A stretch of 64,000 nt of DNA from Tridacna crocea (Eukaryota; Mollusca; Bivalvia; Cardiida; Cardiidae). The DNA lies in NCBI GenBank assembly GCA_943736015.1, contig OX031065.1, forward strand, positions 48,834,992 through 48,898,991. Reading direction: 5' to 3'. The position numbers and the translations under genes are program-made. Below are positions 6,079-59,700 of this stretch, in pieces. Position 1 is the first letter of the stretch, and every line of letters starts with the position of its first letter. A model generated the notes under the pieces. It was not told the DNA's origin. It made no database searches and saw only the letters and a program-made list of their open reading frames with translations.

Positions 6079-7975
6079 TTTAGCTCACCTGAGCATGTAG
6101 TGTTCAGAGTCAGCTTTTGTGATTGTGCTGTGTCCCTTGCCAGTAGTGTATTATGCGTCTTCCATCATCAACATTTACCTTTTATACGCTCTAAAGGCCA
6201 CTACTGAAACTTGGTCAGAATGTTTGTCTTGACGATATCTTGCACAAATCCCAAAATGGGTCATGTGAGGTTAAAAGACTCGGTCAAATCTTAAAAAAAT
6301 TTTTGTGTATGCTCTAGAGGCTACATTTCTGTCCAATACACCTGAAAGTTAGTAAGAATGTTTGACTTGATGATATCTTAGAGGAATTTGAAAATGGGTA
6401 TGTCGGGTCAAAAACTCAGATCACCAGGTCAAATCTTAGAAAAAACTTGTTATGCTCTACAGGACACATTTTCAGTCCAATACTCTTGAAAGTTGGTCAG
6501 AATCTTTTCTTGATAATATCTCTAATAAATATGAAAATGGGCCATTTTGGGTCAAACGCAAGGTCACAAGGTCAAATATTAGAAAAACCTCATGTAAACT
6601 CTATAGGCCAAATTTTCAGCCCAATACCCTTGAAAGTTGGTCAGAATATTTGTCTTGATGATATCTTGGATGACTTTAAAACTGGGCAAAGTTGGGTCAA
6701 AAACTAGGTCAACAGGTCAAATCTAAGAAAACCTTGTGTATGCACTACATGCCACATTTTCAGTCACTCTTCAAGGATAATCAAACTGTTTGTCTGGATG
6801 ATATCTGGGACAAGTTCTATAATGGGCCATGTTGGGTTAAAAACTAGGTCACTAGGTCATATCTTAGAAAAACATTGTGTTTGCTCCAGAAACGACATTT
6901 TTTGTCCAGTACTATAGAAAGTTCGCCAGAATCTTTATTATAATAGTATCACAGACAAGTGTGAAAATGGGCAATGTCTGGTCAAAACTAGGTCAAATCT
7001 TAGAAAAACCTTGTGCATGTTCCAGAGGCCACATTTTCAGTCCAAAGCTCTCCAAAGTTGGTCAGAATGTTTGTCATAATGATAGCTTGGATTACTTAGA
7101 AAATGGGTCATGTGTAGTCAAAAACTAGGTCACTTGGTGAAATCTTAGGAAAACCTTTTAACCCTTTCCCAAACAATCCCTGGTTTTTACGGGTCAGGAA
7201 TAGGAGCCTTTTGAAAACATAGTGGGAAAAGAAGAAATGCTGGTAACCAGCATTTTCTCCTTTTCCCACAATGTTTTCTACCCTATCATATAGAAAAATC
7301 ATCTTTTCAGCAACTGTTAATTTGCCATATGCAAAATGCTTTCAATTTGGTCTAGTCCAAAATTTGCCGTTTGGGAAAGGGTTAACCTTAACATGTATGC
7401 TGCTGAGACCACTTTTTCAGTCAAATAGGGCTTAATCTTGAAATTTTTTCAGAATGTTTGTCTAGGCTAGTATGAAAATGGGTCATGGTTACCAGGTCAA
7501 ATCTTGGAAAAAACTTTTGTACACATTACAATTTTAGTCCAATATTCTTAAAACTTGGTCAAAAAGCCTGTCTTTAAGATCTCTTTTGTGAGTTTGAAAA
7601 TGGGTCACTTGGAATCTAAAACTAGGTGACCAAATTCAATCCTTGAAAAATCTTGTGCACACTCTAAAGACCACATTTTCGAACTAATAATCTTGACATT
7701 TGCATAGAGTGTCTGTCTTGATAATATCTTAGACTAGTAGGAAAATGGGTCATGTTGGATAAAAAAAAAAACTAAGTCACTAGGTCAAATCTCGGAAAAA
7801 AAAAGTTGTACACCCTATAGGCCACATTTTGTCAGAATGTATGTCTGGATAATTTTGACATTGCAAGAAGGCCAATGAGACAAATTCTAGAAAAAGATTG
7901 TGCATGCTCTGAAGGCCATTTTTTTTTTTTTTGTCAAATGGTAATGAGTGTTTGTCAGAATGTTTGTCTTAATAT
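6079..7975 (+). repeat. Long tandem bivalve repeat, ~140-bp unit
   Basis: Begins 'tagctcacctgagcatgtag' and then repeats the cassette 'ccacattttcagtcca', 'gaaagttggtcagaatg', 'tgatgatatctt', 'gaaaatgggtca', 'aggtcaaatcttagaaaaac' about a dozen times with increasing decay. A TPM copy interrupts it at 7158-7385. The repeated ORFs at 6447-7128 are unit-wise copies. An opposite-strand member lies at the right window edge. Confidence 0.85.
7158..7385 (+). mobile_element. TPM-a, full length
   Basis: TTAA-CCCTTTCCCA start and GGGAAAGGG-TTAA end. The palindrome is at 7213-7278 with centre GGTAACC. It is inserted in the tandem bivalve repeat at 'aaaacctt', so it is younger than that repeat. Confidence 0.92.
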
Positions 7976-8504: not shown

Positions 8505-8660
8505 TTGATAATACCATATAATTATAAGAGCTTCAGAAAATATTGTCGTAAAAGTGAGAATATGCTGGTAACCAGCATTTTCTCACTTTTTCCACAATAT
8601 TTTCAAAAGTTGTTTTCCATTGGGTCATTAAAGCCTAAGGGATCCTGTGATAAAGGGCAA
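8505..8660 (-). mobile_element. TPM-a, ends decayed
   Basis: Palindrome at 8536-8604; AAAGTGAGAA / TTCTCACTTTT is matched on both arms although it differs from the usual AAAGGAGAA. The right end survives as 'ggatcctgtgataaagggcaa'; the left end is not recognisable. Confidence 0.75.
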
Positions 8661-9685: not shown

Positions 9686-9915
9686 TTAACTCATTACCGA
9701 ACAACAACATTTTAGGATTGTCCAAATCGAAAGCATTTGCAGACAACAAAATAAAAGTGACTGAAAATTAGAAATTTGCCTTGTGAAGTTGTAGAAAACA
9801 TTGTGGGAAAAGGAGAAAATGCTGGTTTCCAGCATTTTCTCCTTTTCCCACAATGTTTTCAGAAGGCTTCTTCCTCTGGCTCATAAAAACCGGGGATTGT
9901 TTGGGAAAGGGTTAA
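9686..9915 (-). mobile_element. TPM-a, full length, first of a chain
   Basis: The palindrome is 67 bp (9794-9860) with centre GGTTTCC. Its right TTAA (9912-9915) is also the left TTAA of the next copy, so two full elements share one target duplication. Confidence 0.93.
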
Positions 9916-10145
9916 CTCTTTGTAACCAGACAACAAAATTTTGGCCCGGCCTAAATTGAAAGTATTTGCAGATGACAAAATAAATATGACCGGAAAACTG
10001 AAACTTGTTATGAGAAGGGTAAAAAACATTGTGGAAAAAGAAGAAAATGCTGGTTACCAGCATTTTCTTCTTTTCCCACAATGTTTTCCAAAGTTTTCTT
10101 TGTCAGGGTCGTTAAGAATCGGGATTGTGTCAGGGAAAGAGTTAA
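9912..10145 (-). mobile_element. TPM-a, full length, second of a chain
   Basis: Palindrome 10022-10088. The arm change GGAG to GAAG is matched by CTTC on the other arm. It joins the previous copy through 9912-9915 and a decayed copy through 10142-10145. Confidence 0.93.
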
Positions 10146-10687: not shown

Positions 10688-10916
10688 TTCAACTCTTTCC
10701 AAAACAATCCCTGGTTTTTACACTCCTGAGAGAGAAGCCTTTAGAAAACATTGTGGAAAAAGGAGAAAATGCTGGTAACCAGCATTTTCTTCTTTTCCCA
10801 CAATGTTTTCTACCCTGCGGAAACAACTTTTGATTTCTGAGTTGCGTTTATTTTGTCATCTGCAAGTGCTTTCAATTTGGACCAGTCTAAAATTTTGTCG
10901 TTTTGTAAAGAGTTAA
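10688..10916 (+). mobile_element. TPM-a, full length
   Basis: The left TTAA has decayed to TTCAA; the right TTAA (10913-10916) is shared with the next copy. Palindrome 10744-10810, with one arm reading GGAG and the other CTTC, a single unmatched change. Confidence 0.88.
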
Positions 10917-11143
10917 CTCTTTATTCCAACTGATAAAATTTCAGACATTAAAACTGAAGGGCTTGCACATAACATGTGTAATATGCGAGTCAAAAGATTA
11001 GATTTGTCTTCAAAAGGGTAGAAAACATTGTAGGAAAAGAAGAAAATGCTGGTACCCAGCATTTTCTTCTTTACCTTCCAATTGTTTTCTAAACCTTTTC
11101 TTATTCAGATTTGTAAAATCCCTTGATTTTCGGATAAGGTTAA
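10913..11143 (-). mobile_element. TPM-a, diverged
   Basis: Palindrome 11021-11089 with centre GTACC; GAAG/CTTC is matched on both arms. The long flank is well decayed. Confidence 0.82.
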
Positions 11144-15017: not shown

Positions 15018-15239
15018 TTAACCTTTTACTCCATAGATTCTCATTTCTACGCATTGCTTGTAGGAGCCTTTTGGAAACAATGTGGCAAAAGGTGAAATTG
15101 CTCGTGACGAGCAATTTCATCTTTTGCCACAATGTTTTCTACACTATCAAAAGTTGTCATATACACAGAGGAAACAGCTTCATCCTTGCTGTTATTCAGG
15201 GTCAATACCATAGAAATACCTTATGGGGTAAAGGGTTAA
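15018..15239 (+). mobile_element. TPM-c, full length
   Basis: Palindrome 15074-15139 with GGCAAAAGGTG and the ATTGCTCGT tip. GGCAAAAG on the left arm is matched by CTTTTGCC on the right. It carries family-specific flanks ('ctacgcattgcttgtagg', 'catagaaata'). Confidence 0.9.
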
Positions 15240-15424: not shown

Positions 15425-16290
15425 GTCAGCCTGCACAGTCTGTACAGGCTGACATAGGTTGTGCACAGTCTGTACAAGCTGACATAGGTTGTGTACAGGC
15501 AGACATAGGTTGTGCACAGTCTGCACAAGCTGGCAAAGGTTGTGCACAGTCTGTACAAGCTGACATAGGTTGTGTACAGGCTGTACAAGCTGACATAGGT
15601 TGTGTACAGTCTGCACAAGCTGCCATAGTTTGTGTACAGTCTGCACAAGCTGACATAGGTAGTGTACAGGCAGACATAGGTTGTTCATAGTCTGCACAAG
15701 CTGACATAGGTTGTGCACAGTCTGTACAAGCTAACATAGGTTGTGTACAGGCTGACATAGGTTGTGCACAGTCTGCACAAGCTAACATAGGTTGTGTACA
15801 GGCTGACATAGGTTGTTCACAGTCTGCACAAGCTAACATAGGTTGTGCACAGTCTGTACAAGCTGACATAGGTTGTGTACAGGCTGTACAAGCTGACATA
15901 GGTTGTGTACAGGCTGACATAGGTTGTGCACAGTCTGTACAAGCTGACATAGGTTGTGTACAGGCTGACATAGGTTGTGCACAGTCTGTACAAGCTGACA
16001 TAGGTGTGTACAGGCAGACATAGGTTGTGCACAGTCTGCACAAGCTGACATAGGTTGTGTACAGGCTGACATAGGTTGTGCACAGTCTGCACAAGCTGAC
16101 ATAGGTTGTGCACAGGCTGTACAAGCTGACATAGGTTGTGTACAGGCTGACATAGGTTGTGCACAGTCTGCACAAGCTGACATAGGTTGTGTACAGGCTG
16201 ACATAGGTTGTGCACAGTCTGCACAAGCTGACATAGGTTGTGTACAGGCAGACATAGGTTGTTCAGTCTGCACAAGCTGACATAGGTTGA
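15425..16290. repeat. Minisatellite of mixed 30-bp and 21-bp units
   Basis: The unit core is CTGACATAGGTTGTG followed by CACAGTCTGYACAAG (30-bp type) or TACAGG (21-bp type). Types alternate irregularly over ~866 bp. Because both lengths are multiples of three and the minus strand lacks stops, several minus frames stay open (up to 266 codons, repeating 'QPMSACTDCA'-like text). I regard these as artefacts of the repeat. Confidence 0.95.
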
Positions 16291-19768: not shown

Positions 19769-20222
19769 GTAACTCTTTACCACACAATCCTGAGTTTAAC
19801 CTTTTCCTAAACAAGCCCTTGTTTTTATGTGTCTGCTGTACAAGTCTTTTGAAAACACTGTGAGAAAAGGAGAAATTGCTCAATGAGCAATTTCTCCTTT
19901 TCCCACAGTGTTTTCTACCCATTTGGAGAACTTTCTGCCATTTTTATCAAATTTGAAATTGTCGTCTGCAAACTCTTTGAGTTTGGAAGAGTCTAAAATT
20001 TGTTGCTTGGGAAAGGGTTAAACTACTCTAACGAAAAAGGCTCTGGAAAACATAGTGGAAAAGGAAGAAAATGCTGGTGAACTGCATTTTCACCTTTTCC
20101 CACAATGTTTCCTACCCTACAATGTCTTACAAAGACAGAAATTCAGCACCACTTGATGTACATTTTTGCTATCAATTTAGCCGAGTCCAAAATTTTATTG
20201 TTTGATTACTTGGTAGAGTTAA
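19769..20222 (+). mobile_element. TPM-a interrupted by a TPM-b
   Basis: 19769-19799 ('ctctttaccacacaatcctg') and 20018-20222 form one copy. Its internal TTAA near 'cctgagtTTAA' received the 19796 copy. The palindrome lies in the right part (about 20047-20112) and its tip is partly decayed. Confidence 0.8.
19796..20021 (+). mobile_element. TPM-b, full length, nested in a TPM-a
   Basis: Palindrome 19851-19915 with ATTGCTC tip. CACTG on the left arm is matched by CAGTG on the right. It duplicates the host's internal TTAA exactly. Confidence 0.92.
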
Positions 20223-25606: not shown

Positions 25607-25820
25607 GAAAGCAGTACCTCTGACGACCCTTAGAGTGAAGCCTTTGGAAAACAATGTGAGAAGAGGAGAAAATACTGGTAATCATCATTTTCTCCTTTTC
25701 CCATAACGTTTCCTATTCTTCACAAAACAAAATTCAAATTTTTAGCCACTTTTATTTTGTCGTTTACAAATGCTTTTGATTTGGACAAGCCTAAAATATT
25801 GTTGTTTGCTAATGAGTTAA
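25607..25820 (+). mobile_element. TPM-a, left end lost
   Basis: Starts within the short flank at 'ctgacgacccttagag'; the palindrome tip 'actggtaatcat' is imperfect. The right TTAA (25817-25820) is shared. Confidence 0.82.
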
Positions 25821-26051
25821 CCCATTACCACACAATCCCTATTTTTGACGCTCCTGAAAAAGAAGCCTTTTGAAAACATTGTGGGTAAAGGTGATATTCC
25901 TGGTAACCAGCATTTTCTCCTTTTCCAACAATGTTTTCTACCCTTCACAAAAAAATATTCAAATTTTCAGTCACTTTTATTTTGTCATCTGCAAAATTTA
26001 ATTCTTTTGATTTGGACAAGTCTAAAATAATGTCATCTGGTTATGAGTTAA
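25817..26051 (+). mobile_element. TPM-a, full length
   Basis: The left arm has drifted ('gggtaaaggtgatattcc') while the right arm is near consensus, so here the arms have diverged independently. Confidence 0.9.
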
Positions 26052-26409: not shown

Positions 26410-26645
26410 TTAAAATAACCGAATACCAGATGACAAAAATTTTAGTCTTGTCCAAATTGAAAGCATTTGCAGACGACAATTTTAGCGTGGCTCAAATGGT
26501 GTAATATTTCTTTGATAGAGTAGAAAACTTTGTGGGAAAAGGAGAAAATGCTGGTTACCAGCATTTTCTTCTTTTTCCAACAGTGTTTTCAAAAGGCTTC
26601 TTTTCCAGGAGTGTCAAAAGTCTGCAATGTGTGGTAAAGGGTTAA
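26410..26645 (-). mobile_element. TPM-a, first of a five-copy chain
   Basis: Palindrome 26523-26590. The chain continues at 26642, 26874, 29683 and 29909 through single shared TTAAs. Confidence 0.88.
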
Positions 26646-26877
26646 CTCATTACCACACTATACTGTGTTGTAACAACCGTAAAGAAGAAGCCTTGAATTG
26701 TAAATATTGTTGGAAAAGGAGAAAATGGTGGTTACCCGCATTTTCTCCTTTTCCAACAAAGTTTTCTACCCTATCAATGACAAAACTATTACTTGAGCTG
26801 CATATATTTTGTCATCTGTGCTGTTAATGCTTTCAATTTGTTGGAGTCGAAAGTTCTGTCGTTTGGTAAAGAGTTAA
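26642..26877 (+). mobile_element. TPM-a, second of the chain
   Basis: TTGGAAAAGG on the left arm is matched by CCTTTTCCAA on the right, a paired change from the consensus GTGGG/CCCAC. Confidence 0.88.
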
Positions 26878-26944: not shown

Positions 26945-29042
26945 TTTGGTTAACCTGCATTTCCTCTTGTTCCCTAAAAAATGTTGCACCATTTCATTGT
27001 ACCCTGCATTTTCTCTTTTTCCCTAAAAAATGTTGCACCATTTCAGCCCGCCCAGGTGGCTCAGTGGTGAGCGTGTCGGACTCAAGACCTGGTGGTTGTG
27101 AGTTTGATACCCAGTTGAGGCGAACTTTCTTTCCAGCGTATTTTTGCCTCTCACCTCTGCTGAAGCATGTGAGAAAAGTAGTTGGTGGCTTTGGAAAGTA
27201 AGTTGTGTTAGTACCGGTATGAGAAAGCCAGGAAACACATGTGCGTCACCAACCGCCATGATATGACCTTAGTTGTTAAAGTGGCGTTAAACCCCAATAC
27301 AACCAATGCACCATTTCATTGTAACCTGCATTTTCTCTTTTTCCCTAAAAAATGTTGCACCATATTATCGTAACCTGCATTTTCTCTTTTTCCCTAAAAA
27401 ATGTTGCACCATTTTATTGTAACCTGCATTTTCATCTTTCCCTAAAAACCATATTATTGTAACCTGCATTTTCTCTTTTTCCCTTAAAAATGTTGCACCA
27501 TTTTATTGTAACCTGCATTTTCATCTTTTTCCCACAAACATGTTGCACCATATTATTGTAACCTGCATTTTCATCTTTCCCTAAAAACCATATTATCGTA
27601 ACCCGCATTTTCTCTTTTTCCCTTAAAAATGTTGCACCATATTATTGTAACCCGCATTTTCTCTTTTTCCCTTAAAAATGTTGCACCATTTTATTGTAAC
27701 CTGCATTTTCTCTTTTTCCCTAAAAACCATATTGTAACCTGCATTTTCTCTTTTTCCCTAAAAAATGTTGCACCATTTTATTGTAACCTGCATTTTCTCT
27801 TTTTCCCTTAAAAATGTTGCACCATATTATTGTAACCTGCATTTTCTCTTTTTCCCTTAAAAATGTTGCACCATTTTATTGTAACCTGCATTTTCATCTT
27901 TCCCTAAAAACCATATTATTGTAACCTGCATTTTCTCTTTTTCCCTAAAAAATGTTGCACCATTTTATTGTAACCTGCATTTTCATCTTTCCCTAAAAAC
28001 CATATTATTGTAACCTGCATTTTCTCTTTTTCCCTTAAAAATGTTGCACCATTTTATTGTAACCTGCATTTTCATCTTTTTCCCACAAACATGTTGCACC
28101 ATATTATTGTAACCTGCATTTTCTCTTTTTCCCTTAAAAATGTTGCACCATTTTATTGTAACCTGCATTTTCTCTTTTTCCCTTAAAAATGTTGCACCAT
28201 TTTATTGTAACCTGCATTTTCATCTTTCCCTAAAAACCATATTATTGTAACCTGCATTTTCTCTTTTTCCCTAAAAAATGTTGCACCATTTTATTGTAAC
28301 CTGCATTTTCATCTTTCCCTAAAAACCATATTATTGTAACCTGCATTTTCTCTTTTTCCCTAAAAAATGTTGCACCATTTTATTGTAACCTGCATTTTCA
28401 TCTTTCCCTAAAAAACATATTATTGTAACCTGCATTTTCTCTTTTTCCCTTAAAAATGTTGCACCATATTATTGTAACCTGCATTTTCTCTTTTTCCCTC
28501 AAAAATGTTGCACCATATTATCGTAACCTGCATTTTCTCTTTTTCCCTTAAAAATGTTGCACCATTTCATCGTAACCTGCATTTTCTCTTTTTCCCTAAA
28601 AAATGTTGCACCATTTTATTGTAACCTGCATTTTCTCTTTTTCCCTTAAAAATGATGCACCATTTTATTGTAACCTGCATTTTCATCTTTCCCTAAAAAC
28701 CATATTATTGTAACCTGCATTTTCTCTTTTTCCCTTAAAAATGTTGCACCATTTTATTGTAACCTGCATTTTCTCTTTTTCCCTAAAAAATGTTGCACCA
28801 TTTTATTGTAACCTGCATTTTCATCTTTCCCTAAAAACCATATTATTGTAACCTGCATTTTCTCTTTTTCCCTTAAAAATGTTGCACCATATTATTGTAA
28901 CCTGCATTTTCTCTTTTTCCCTAAAACATGTTGCACCATTTTATTGTAACCTTCATTTTCTCTTTTTCCCACAAACATGTTGCACCATATTATTGTAACC
29001 TGAATTCTCTCTTTTTCCGTAAAAAATGTTGCACCATATTAT
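26945..29042 (+). repeat. Minisatellite derived from a TPM palindrome arm, about 39 units
   Basis: The main unit (~48 bp) is 'gtaacctgcattttctcttt', then 'ttcccttaaaaatgttgcac', then 'cattttatt'. A shorter ~38-bp variant has 'ttttcatctttccctaaaaa' and lacks 'tgttgcac'. In parts the long and short units alternate, giving higher-order repeats. 'gtaacctgcattttctc...tttccc' is the right arm of a TPM. A SINE interrupts the array at 27046-27306. Confidence 0.95.
27046..27306 (+). mobile_element. tRNA-derived SINE with target-site duplication
   Basis: The head 'ggtggctcagtggtgagcg' carries box A, and 'GAGTTTGATACCC' resembles box B. The body is 'cgcctctcacctctgctg'-like with 'gaaagccaggaaacacatg' and 'gccatgatatgacc'; the tail is 'ccccaatacaacca'. 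The 12-bp flanks tgcaccatttca (27034-27045 and 27307-27318) fit a target duplication, although the host array also repeats this text. Confidence 0.88.
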
Positions 29043-29093
29043 TGACAAGCCCCATCTTTTGAGTCACATTTAATGTGTCCCCTTGTAGATGCT

Positions 29094-29682: not shown

Positions 29683-29912
29683 TTAACTCTTTATCAAACG
29701 ACAAAATTTAGACTGGTCCAAATTGAAAGCATTTGCAGACAACAAAATAGAACTGATTGAAAATTTGAAATCTGTTTTGGGAAAGGAAGAAAACATTGTT
29801 GGAAAAGGAGAAAATGCTGGTTACCTGCATTTTCTCTTTTTTTCCCACAATGTTTTCAGAAGGCTCCTTTCTCAGGGTCATTGAAAGTCGGGATTGTGTG
29901 ATAAAGAGTTAA
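29683..29912 (-). mobile_element. TPM-a, fourth of the chain
   Basis: Palindrome 29789-29857 with tip 'ctggttacctgcat', the same one-base-shifted tip as in the adjoining minisatellite. Confidence 0.92.
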
Positions 29913-30131
29913 CTCTTTACCACGCAGTCCCTACTTTAAACGACCCAGAGAAAAAAACCTTTTGAAAACATTGTTGGAAAAGGAGAAAATGCTGGTGGAG
30001 AAAATCTGGTGTCCAGCATTTTCTCCTTTTCCAACAATGTTTTCTGACCTTCTCAGAACAAATTTCGTTTTTTAAGCCACACTTTTTTGTCGTCTGAAAG
30101 TCTAAAATTTTGTCGTTTGGGAAAGAGTTAA
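29909..30131 (+). mobile_element. TPM-a, fifth of the chain
   Basis: Outer arms are perfectly paired with the variant GTTGG/CCAAC. The tip carries an extra 'ggagaaaatctggtgt' duplication. Palindrome 29967-30044. Confidence 0.9.
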
Positions 30132-32006: not shown

Positions 32007-32235
32007 TTAACTCTATACCACACGAGAAAATTTTAGACTGGTCCAAATTGAAAGCATTTGCAGATGACAAAATAAAGGTAACTAAAAAATAGAAATTTGG
32101 TCTGGGAAGGGCAGAAAACACTGTGGGAAAAGGAGAAAATGCTGGTTACCAGCATTTTCTCCTTTTCCCACAGTGTTTTCAAAAGGCTTCTTTCTCAGGG
32201 GCGTCAAAAGTAGGGATTGTGTGGTAATGGGTTAA
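32007..32235 (-). mobile_element. TPM-a, full length, with a known empty site
   Basis: Host text 'agccttTTAA' and 'TTAAgggaatacc' flanks it. The paralogue at about 29505 reads 'agccttTTAAgggaatac' uninterrupted, proving TTAA duplication. Palindrome 32114-32180 is perfect, with CACTG/CAGTG changed on both arms. Confidence 0.96.
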
Positions 32236-35149: not shown

Positions 35150-36265
35150 CACCTTAGCACAAAGTACTAAAGGTGAGCTATTGTGATCGTCCTATGTCCG
35201 CCGTCCGGCGTCCAGCATCTGTCATCCGTCAACAATTTCTTTAAACATCTTGTTCTAAATCACTGTGCAAATCTTGATGAACTTGGCAGGGATGTTCCTT
35301 GGGTGAAGCTCTACCAAAATTGTTCAAAGAATAGAATTCCACTCATAATTCTGGTTGCCATGGCAGCAAAAAGGGAAAAAAAATCTTTGAAAATCTTCTC
35401 TGAAAGTAGAAGGCATAGAGCTTTGATATTTGGTATGTAACATCTCCTAGTGGACCTCTACCAAGTTTGTTCATATAATGCCCTTGGGTTCAAAAGTGGC
35501 CCTGCCCCGGGGGTCATAAGTTCGAACACAGGAACAAAGAAGAAAAACTTTACAAATTTCATTTCTCAAACTTGATGGCGTAGAGCTTTGATTTTTGGTA
35601 TGTAGCATCTTCTAGTGGACCTCTACCAAGTTTGTTCATATGATGCCCCTGGGGTCAAAACTGGCCCCGCCCAGGGGGTTACAAGTTCAAACATAGGAAC
35701 AAAGAATGAAAACTTTAATATCCTTCTCCTCATTAAGTAAAAAGCATAGAGCTTTGATATTTGGAATGTAACATCTCCTAGTGGACCTCTACCAAGTTTG
35801 TTCATATGATGCCCTTGGGTTCAAAAGTGGCCCTGCCCCGGGGGTCATAAGTTCGAACACAGGAATAAAGAAGAAAAACTTTACAAATTTTCTTCTCTGA
35901 AACTTGATGGCGTAGAGCTTTGATATTTGGTATGTAGTATCTTCTAGTGGACCTCTACCAAGTTTGTTCATATGATGCCCCTGGGGTCAAAACTGGCCCT
36001 GCCCTGGAGGGACACAAGTTCAAACATAGGAACAAAGACAGAAAATTATAAAATTCTTCTTCTCTAAAACTAGAAGTCATAGAGCTTTGATATTTGGCAT
36101 GTAGCAATTCCTAGTAGACCTCTCCAAAATTTGTTCATTTCATGTCCTTGGGGTCAAAACTGGCCCTGCCCCTGGGGTCACAGGTTAGTTTAAAGTTCAT
36201 CACATAAACATGAAGGAAATAACGCTATAGTCTCAGGTGAGCACTCCAGGGCCAATGTCCCTAGC
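35150..36265 (+). mobile_element. AGGTGAGCT-type bivalve repeat with terminal hairpin and ~165-bp units
   Basis: It starts with a stem-loop, 'tagttcaccttagcac' / 'actaaaggtgagcta', then 'gatcgtcctatgtccgccg'. Five imperfect units follow, each with 'agagctttgatatttggtat', 'gtggacctctaccaagtttg' and 'ggtcataagttcgaac'. It closes with 'ctcaggtgagcactccaggg'. The open frames here are unit copies. Confidence 0.75.
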
Positions 36266-47990: not shown

Positions 47991-48220
47991 TTACCCCTTT
48001 ACCAAAGAACAGTATTTTAGCGATGTCCAAATTGAAAGCATTTTGCAGATAATAATTTCCATGTAGCTCAAATGGTGCAATTTTTCAATGATGGGGCAGA
48101 AAACATTGTGGAAAAAGGAGAAAATGCTGGTTACCAGCATTTTCTCCTTTTTCCACAATGTTTTCTAAAGGCTTCTTTCCAAGTGTTGTCAAAAGTCCGC
48201 ATTGTGTGGTAAAGGGTTAA
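47991..48220 (-). mobile_element. TPM-a, full length
   Basis: Palindrome 48099-48165 is perfect, with GGAAAAAGG matched by CCTTTTTCC. The left end duplicates 'cttta(c)' text (47978-47998), suggesting a small rearrangement of the terminus. Confidence 0.9.
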
Positions 48221-53242: not shown

Positions 53243-53464
53243 AGTTCAACTCTTTTGTACACAATCCTTAATTTTGATGACCTCGAGGTACAAGGCATTT
53301 GAAAACATTGCGGAAAAAGGAGAAAATGGAGGTAACCAACTTTTCCTTTTTCCACAATGTTTTCTACTCTGGAAAAGAAATTTCATTCATTTATATGATT
53401 TTCGAATTTGTCATCTGCATATGCTTTCAACTTGGAAGAGCTGACCAATTGTCATTAGTTTAAG
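53243..53464 (+). mobile_element. TPM-a, diverged
   Basis: GGAAAAAGG is matched by CCTTTTTCC on the other arm, although the tip has decayed ('ggaggtaaccaac'). Confidence 0.78.
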
Positions 53465-53714
53465 AGGTCTGTCTGTCCATCAGAACTTCTTTCTAACACA
53501 AACAGTAACATCGCTACTCACTGTGCGATTTCACTTTTATCACAATGAATAATATCCACAGAAATTTTTAACAAGGACCTGAAAATCCTCACAAAGCAAA
53601 GTCATTGATAAACCCAGGATAAATTTCTGCCTTCTAATAGGGTATTATAAGCATTTTACAGGCCTTACAGTGAAATAAAGCAGGCTTTCACAAATGTCTT
53701 GAAACTGTCCAAAC

Positions 53715-58364: not shown

Positions 58365-58492
58365 ATTTATCATCACCACCAGTTTCACATATGGGCAATG
58401 CCACCTTAGATGGCCAGCCGAGGGGATCGAACCCACACCCTCATGATCTTGAGTCCTACACTGTACCAACTGAGTTATGCAGGCTGGTTGTA
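58365..58492 (-). mobile_element. tRNA-derived SINE, CCAGCC family, shortened
   Basis: The minus-strand head CCAGCCTGCATAACTCAGTT continues to GGGTTCGATCCCC and GGCTGG, so box B is perfect and a CCAGCC/GGCTGG stem is retained. Most of the body is deleted. It is a SINE head, not a functional tRNA: it lies in the SINE context with the shared 'gtgtttatttatcatcac' tail. Confidence 0.82.
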
Positions 58493-59471: not shown

Positions 59472-59700
59472 TTAACCCATTACCACACAATCCCTACTTT
59501 TGACACCCCTGAGAAAGAAGCCTTTTGAAAACACTGTAGGAAAAGGAGAAAATGCTGGTAACCAGCATTTTCTCCTTTTCCCACACTGTTTTCTACCCTT
59601 GCCAGAACCAATTCCAATTTTTCAGTCACCTTTATATTGTCGTCCGCAAATGCTTTCATTTTGAACCAGTCTAAAATGATGTTGTGTGGTAAAGAGTTAA
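59472..59700 (+). mobile_element. TPM-a, full length
   Basis: Palindrome 59527-59593; the arm bases ACACTGTAGG and CCCACACTG are not matched, so this copy is drifting. Confidence 0.92.

Follow-up and report, generated by a model that had tools for sequence, protein, structure and literature searches.

The question raised by this locus is why changes in one arm of a palindrome should be mirrored in the other. In a window of 64,000 nucleotides from the bivalve Tridacna crocea (the whole stretch of DNA that was analysed), the original prediction described such mirrored variants among copies of a palindrome at 32114..32180 and offered two causes, namely a continuing repair of the palindrome by arm-to-arm gene conversion or template switching, or selection for hairpin pairing. 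The palindrome is 67 nt long and perfect, with two 33-nt arms around a single central T, bears the paired subfamily variant 8T>C, and forms the centre of a non-coding, TTAA-flanked MITE of ~230 bp. The complete copy at this site, 229 bp in length (32007..32235, + strand), runs from TTAA at 32007-32010 to TTAA at 32232-32235, has the ends TTAACTCTATACCAC and GTGGTAATGGGTTAA, and scores 231 bits over positions 1-228 of the model in a profile search. With the profile made from this copy (228 columns; cut-off of at least 30 bits, overlaps removed), 85 matches covering 16,164 bases were found in the window. Outside it, 194 matches cover 36,265 of 250,000 bases (14.5%) in 25 stretches of 10 kb, sampled at round coordinates on seven contigs; three of the stretches hold no match at all. 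For the assembly of 1.05 Gb in 31 contigs, extrapolation from these 250 kb gives about 0.8 million copies, and the exact 49-nt intact core alone occurs 68,413 times genome-wide.

Among 132 full-length copies in the window and in loci L002-L033, TTAA is found at the 5' end of 109, at the 3' end of 107, and at both ends of 90. The same loci contain 19 junctions, in all four relative orientations, at which two adjoining MITEs have one TTAA in common; those of the window lie at 9912, 10913, 26642, and 29909. Such a junction is a MITE inserting at the target site of an older copy and, together with the TTAA at both ends, it shows an element that inserts into TTAA, at times beside itself. Being short, non-coding, TIR-ended, and of high copy number, the element is a TTAA-inserting MITE, and none of the three window ORFs of at least 150 amino acids looked transposase-like by eye. 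A 49-bp minisatellite of ~37 units at 27307..29044, each unit carrying one decayed palindrome arm, is a MITE fragment turned tandem array. Further tandem arrays occupy 15432-16289 (periods 21-81), 35394-36186 (period 166), and 6282-7157 (136-285 bp). At the gathering score, the only Rfam match to a known RNA family in the window is tRNA-like (58412-58484, - strand, 36 bits), where ARAGORN predicted none; it is possibly a tRNA-derived SINE. A search of phage records gave no match.

The alignment of the arms of the window copies contains all six mirrored pairs that had been cited. CACTG/CAGTG (32114, 19851) corresponds to 8T>C in the copy at 32007 and in that at 19797..20021 (- strand), which belongs to the GCTC-type subfamily and carries paired 26T beside 8C, and GGAAAAAGG/CCTTTTTCC to 14G>A in the copies at 47991..48219 (+ strand; the palindrome, from 48099, is otherwise perfect) and 53248..53468 (- strand; with several unpaired changes). 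GTTGG/CCAAC is 12G>T, found at 29910..30131 (- strand; with a loop insertion, and a TTAA in common with the copy at 29683-29911) and at 26643..26877 (- strand; TTAA in common with 26416-26644). GAAG/CTTC is 20G>A, found at 9912..10144 (+ strand; TTAA in common with 9686-9914) and, together with paired 12A, at 10913..11138 (+ strand; TTAA in common with 10691-10916). The pair GTGAGAA/TTCTCAC at 8536 proved to be a mirrored insertion of T after arm position 19 in a partial copy with paired 6T (8534..8657, + strand), the only one of its kind among 252 copies, and the pair cited at 15074 is 14G>C with 21T, 26T, and 31C, the mark of a subfamily represented by the partial copy at 15019..15152 (- strand). 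The two copies cited as unmatched do have unmatched arms: one (59527; copy at 59473..59700, - strand) has 8G on the left and 8C with 12A on the right, the other (25817; copy at 25818..26051, - strand) 12T on the left and five changes on the right. Three of the positions given for these copies (53243, 26642, and 25817) fall at the ends of minus-strand elements, outside the palindromes.

Counted over 2155 position pairs in 67 usable copies of the 71 with two arms (from the 85 matches; four were left out for large gaps), 42 changed positions are identical on both arms, 15 differ, 153 are changed on the left only, and 159 on the right only. When right arms were shuffled among copies, 12.1 ± 3.4 identical pairs were expected and none of 2000 permutations reached 42, so that the mirroring does exceed chance as predicted. 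Most changes nevertheless have no partner (327 of the 369 changed positions), and a single subfamily supplies, in five copies, 16 of the 42 pairs. A larger set was assembled from the window, the grid of sampled stretches, and seven loci (L002-L008) found via their likeness to the window core, the last contributing 37 of 273 two-armed copies; 21 with short or gapped arms were left out. In the 252 copies retained, 170 positions are paired, 77 changed differently, 556 changed on the left only, and 607 on the right only, against 49 ± 7 pairs under permutation. The expectation rises to 76 ± 8 when the permutation is stratified by divergence, and without the 25 GCTC-type copies 96 pairs are observed against 59 ± 6.5 on the same stratified basis. 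A site-by-copy rate model for 222 copies, with the GCTC-type left out and the tandem copies of L011 taken once, predicted 64.9 unpaired doubles where 66 were seen, and 47.7 non-founder pairs where 74 were seen, a modest excess for some of which unsampled small subfamilies can account; for the most part, the scattered pairs are what double hits at hotspots would give. The L011 copies (1225, 2893, 4564, 6236, 7902, and 9570), six MITEs spaced by ~1.67 kb whose arms and flanks are identical, are a tandem array with one MITE per unit.

Much of the raw pairing signal is accounted for by descent and hotspots, and it could be supposed that nothing else is involved: a few accidentally symmetric founders, multiplied by plain descent, plus double hits at mutable sites, with neither selection nor correction. 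Five variants do make up 85 of the 170 paired cells (8C 24, 14C 11, 21T 12, 26T 21, and 31C 17), and the possibility that all paired variants trace to a few founder subfamilies, which would have told against the original prediction, is therefore borne out for half of them; the rest are scattered over many backgrounds. On a tree made from the flanks only (199 copies after merging of identical rows, from the 204 of 252 with at least 120 flank columns), the five are clonal, 8C requiring 6 changes for 22 copies, 14C 1 for 10, 21T 2 for 11, 26T 2 for 19, and 31C 4 for 16. The sites mark clades of 10 (14C and 21T), 9 (26T and 31C), and 16 (8C), and perhaps represent no more than about three lineages. 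The remaining paired variants in at least three copies are scattered, for example 20A (7 copies, 7 changes), 12T (5 and 5), and 14A (4 and 4), and the closeness of scattered pairs to the rate model likewise speaks for plain descent with hotspots.

What plain descent leaves aside is that the five founder sites are altered on both arms while one-arm founder changes are few. By a clonality index (at most 0.5 changes per copy, for variants with at least five copies), which overlooks clonal variants mingled with recurrent ones such as 13A, five of seven paired variants are clonal against none of 77 single-arm variants; the comparison with flank variants is circular for the flanks, not for the arms. 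At a majority of at least 75%, clades carry five paired and one single-arm variant in the arms, and 159 variants over 106 of 161 columns in the flanks. A single-arm subfamily marker does exist in left-arm 13A, present in 6 of the 10 copies of the 14C clade, and at a 60% majority five single-arm variants stand beside the five paired ones, which implies that asymmetry is tolerated in places. Placed on the tree, paired arm changes exceed expectation: internal branches, with 46 events on the left and 43 on the right, carry 7 pairs where 1.1 are expected (0 of 1000 shuffles), and terminal branches, with 462 left and 461 right events, carry 38 where 23.3 are expected (2 of 1000 shuffles). The terminal branches are long, since the sample comprises only a few hundred copies out of perhaps 0.8 million. 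The view that independent decay of a fixed palindrome would not produce the pairing thus holds good, since the five paired subfamily variants are not explained by such decay. Swapping of cores between backgrounds was considered and is unlikely, as the founder core variants track the flank tree and parts of the flanks correlate at 0.54-0.59. Near-perfect palindromes at L014:6506 (paired 12T, 14T, and 32A) and L019:7252 (paired 14T and 15G) are perhaps small subfamilies, and the palindrome of L054 is perfect, has paired changes at three sites (6T, 9C, and 14A), and stands on an unusual flank background. Plain descent with hotspots as the whole explanation is improbable, also in view of a core conserved better than the TIRs.

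If conversion or hairpin repair were continuing in every resident copy, recent changes should be paired as well. Such changes can be approximated by those private to a copy within its flank cluster, which mostly arose after insertion, the clusters being defined from the flanks themselves in the 204 copies with at least 120 flank columns. At thresholds of 0.10, 0.14, 0.18, and 0.22, the private paired changes numbered 1, 0, 0, and 0, with 0.06-0.29 expected by chance; the tightest threshold, which gave the single pair, covers 31 copies, and the widest, with 0.29 expected, gave no pair among 50 left and 56 right private changes in 99 copies. The arms of an individual resident copy decay separately and, private changes being almost never paired, show no noticeable repair; on this point the original prediction is not supported, and ongoing repair was rejected as the dominant process. 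It is true that pairing exceeds the permutation, and that in 227 non-GCTC copies the left arm agrees with its own right arm at 96 changed positions, and with that of the flank-nearest copy at 46. At arm site 24, moreover, where 2135 single-arm changes and 273 doubles occur genome-wide, 93 of the first 100 doubles listed are paired (88 with 24C, 2 with G, and 3 with T) and 7 unpaired. The 24C pairs nevertheless belong partly to one subfamily (9 copies requiring 7 changes against 8.9 for shuffled labels; 0 of 200 as low), and the 556 left and 607 right single-arm changes far outnumber the 170 paired ones, so that repair of resident copies is regarded as very improbable.

The pair GGAAAAAGG/CCTTTTTCC is a recurrent hotspot. 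In the exact 49-nt core, paired 14A occurs 685 times genome-wide where ~257 would be expected from 4196 one-arm copies (2.7-fold), an expectation that takes the one-arm count, obtained in a single orientation, for both arms; the excess amounts to about 5% of single-arm copies. A single founder subfamily was dropped as an explanation of 14A, the flank backgrounds being scattered: 20 fetched paired-14A copies, with a median flank distance of 0.318, are as dispersed as the whole family, and with 4 sampled ones added, the 24 copies require 22 changes on the flank tree against 23.2 for shuffled labels. The corresponding medians are 0.177 for 33 sampled intact-core copies, 0.28 for 19 others fetched from within the first 2.1 Mb at the end of one contig, and 0.37 for 212 sampled copies. 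As a strong sign of repeated arm copying, 14A is in turn weakened by the ~257 pairs expected, and pairs that are largely double hits at a hotspot are what plain descent would allow. Since mirrored changes in a repeat follow from subfamily descent and hotspot double hits, they are by themselves no evidence of repair.

The chief competitor of selection at mobilisation is a correction coupled to copying. The nascent strand would fold at the palindrome during replication, or during gap repair after excision, and one arm would template the other, in which case transposing lineages would stay symmetric and silent copies would decay; this is tentatively entertained as a possible, if unlikely, account. 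Support comes from the centre base, which outside the GCTC subfamily is T in 175, A in 39, C in 10, and G in 2 of the sampled copies. Among oriented perfect copies genome-wide, centre A occurs 1449 times and centre C 392 times, an A:C ratio of 3.7 against 1.5 (95:62) at the remaining T sites of the arms, site 8 left out (Fisher P 8e-7), the control being a small sample in a differing sequence context, which also weighs against the account. Centre-A copies are scattered on the flank tree (20 changes for 21 copies). This T>A excess matches the spacer inversion predicted for template switching, and in yeast such switching homogenises arms and inverts spacers (PMC8604942); for a spacer of one base, biased point mutation may fit equally. 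The mirrored insertion at 8534 and the excesses of scattered pairs and of 14A point the same way. The link between flipped centres and pairs is weak, however, centre A being present in 18 of 63 copies that have non-founder pairs and in 20 of the 147 that have none (z 1.84 when stratified), and the absence of pairs among the 106 private changes at the widest threshold counts against coupled correction. Coupled correction alone should, in addition, leave the evolution of the arms unslowed, yet columns with a clade-majority variant are far scarcer in the arms than in the flanks. That arm is copied from arm whenever the element is itself copied, so that the core stays symmetric and thousands of copies come to bear paired changes and flipped centres, is rather doubtful.

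The conservation of the core bears on what keeps the symmetry. In 204 copies, the major allele has a mean share of 0.90-0.91 across the core, against 0.87-0.88 across the TIRs and 0.71-0.80 elsewhere. Arms and flanks, the comparison called for by the original prediction, differ at the subfamily level: at threshold 0.22, shared changes, which are mostly ancestral, number 0.021-0.026 per site in the arms and 0.063-0.085 in the flanks, ~3x fewer in the arms. One subfamily, whose flanks are only 52-55% identical to those of the main one (within or near the shuffled range), departs from it in the core at four paired sites and one single-arm site only. A core kept across near-unalignable flanks is conserved in its sequence besides its complementarity, and this speaks for a recognised site rather than a bare hairpin. 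Among subfamilies that have spread, differences in the core consist mainly of changes made on both arms. It is therefore somewhat favoured that symmetry is kept in the lineages that amplify, selection at mobilisation being the best reading, and the palindrome is probably the central functional module of this TTAA-inserting MITE family. Under selection at mobilisation, a near-symmetric core would be required for amplification; mutants of one arm would seldom be propagated, and subfamilies would arise from variants with matching arms. This is probably because the arms serve as equal half-sites, the candidates being sites bound by a dimer, for example of the transposase, or sites paired in an extruded hairpin. 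Copying of arm onto arm may contribute a small share of the pairing, corresponding to a few per cent of the single changes at most, and other scattered pairs would be chance double hits at mutable sites. Selection at mobilisation leaves the excess of scattered pairs and that of centre T>A unexplained. Against it also stands that private changes are somewhat fewer in the arms (0.015-0.017 per site against 0.022-0.027 in the flanks at threshold 0.22, ~1.5x), a deficit that selection at mobilisation alone does not give and that may be explained by alignment error in the flanks or by CpG sites.

With the family at near 15% of the sampled genome, the need of a symmetric inner site for the spread of a MITE becomes countable, as does the frequency of hairpin-templated correction in a eukaryotic germ line, two questions that are usually untestable. 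If it is real, correction coupled to transposition would place hairpin-templated repair among the regular steps of the MITE life cycle.

Known systems offer several points of comparison. Members of the piggyBac superfamily have a terminus of CCC/CCY. The ends TTAACYCWTTACCA combine a TTAA target with a CCC/CCY-like terminus of this kind, and the CY end fits a putative piggyBac assignment. Non-autonomous piggyBac-type elements and MITEs are likewise short, non-coding, and TIR-ended, with TTAA on both sides, and the present element starts with CYC after TTAA; unlike them, it has at its centre a 67-nt perfect palindrome conserved above the TIRs. The ends of piggyBac contain 19-bp palindromes, and the dimer of the piggyBat transposase uses its C-terminal cysteine-rich domains to bind an imperfect palindrome (PMC11707139). 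The TTAA target site is also common to the Kolobok T2-MITE, and PMC6004289 gives RR as the Kolobok terminus, AGGRR in T2. Kolobok was rejected, since the present element ends in CY and has no terminal RR after TTAA. A literature search of partial scope found no description of the element or of paired changes in the inner palindrome of a MITE. In a REPIN, the hairpin is the whole element; in the present MITE, it is an inner module. REPINs are bacterial, associated with RAYT, and without TTAA or TIRs of the MITE kind. A REPIN was set aside, the host assembly of 1.05 Gb not being bacterial and the element having both TIRs and TTAA. Template switching at quasipalindromes, as set out in PMC8604942 and PMC8794818, predicts homogenised arms and inverted spacers. 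In contrast to such quasipalindrome correction, pairing is here concentrated in subfamily lineages and rare among private changes, and only the centre flip and the small excess of pairs point towards correction of that kind.
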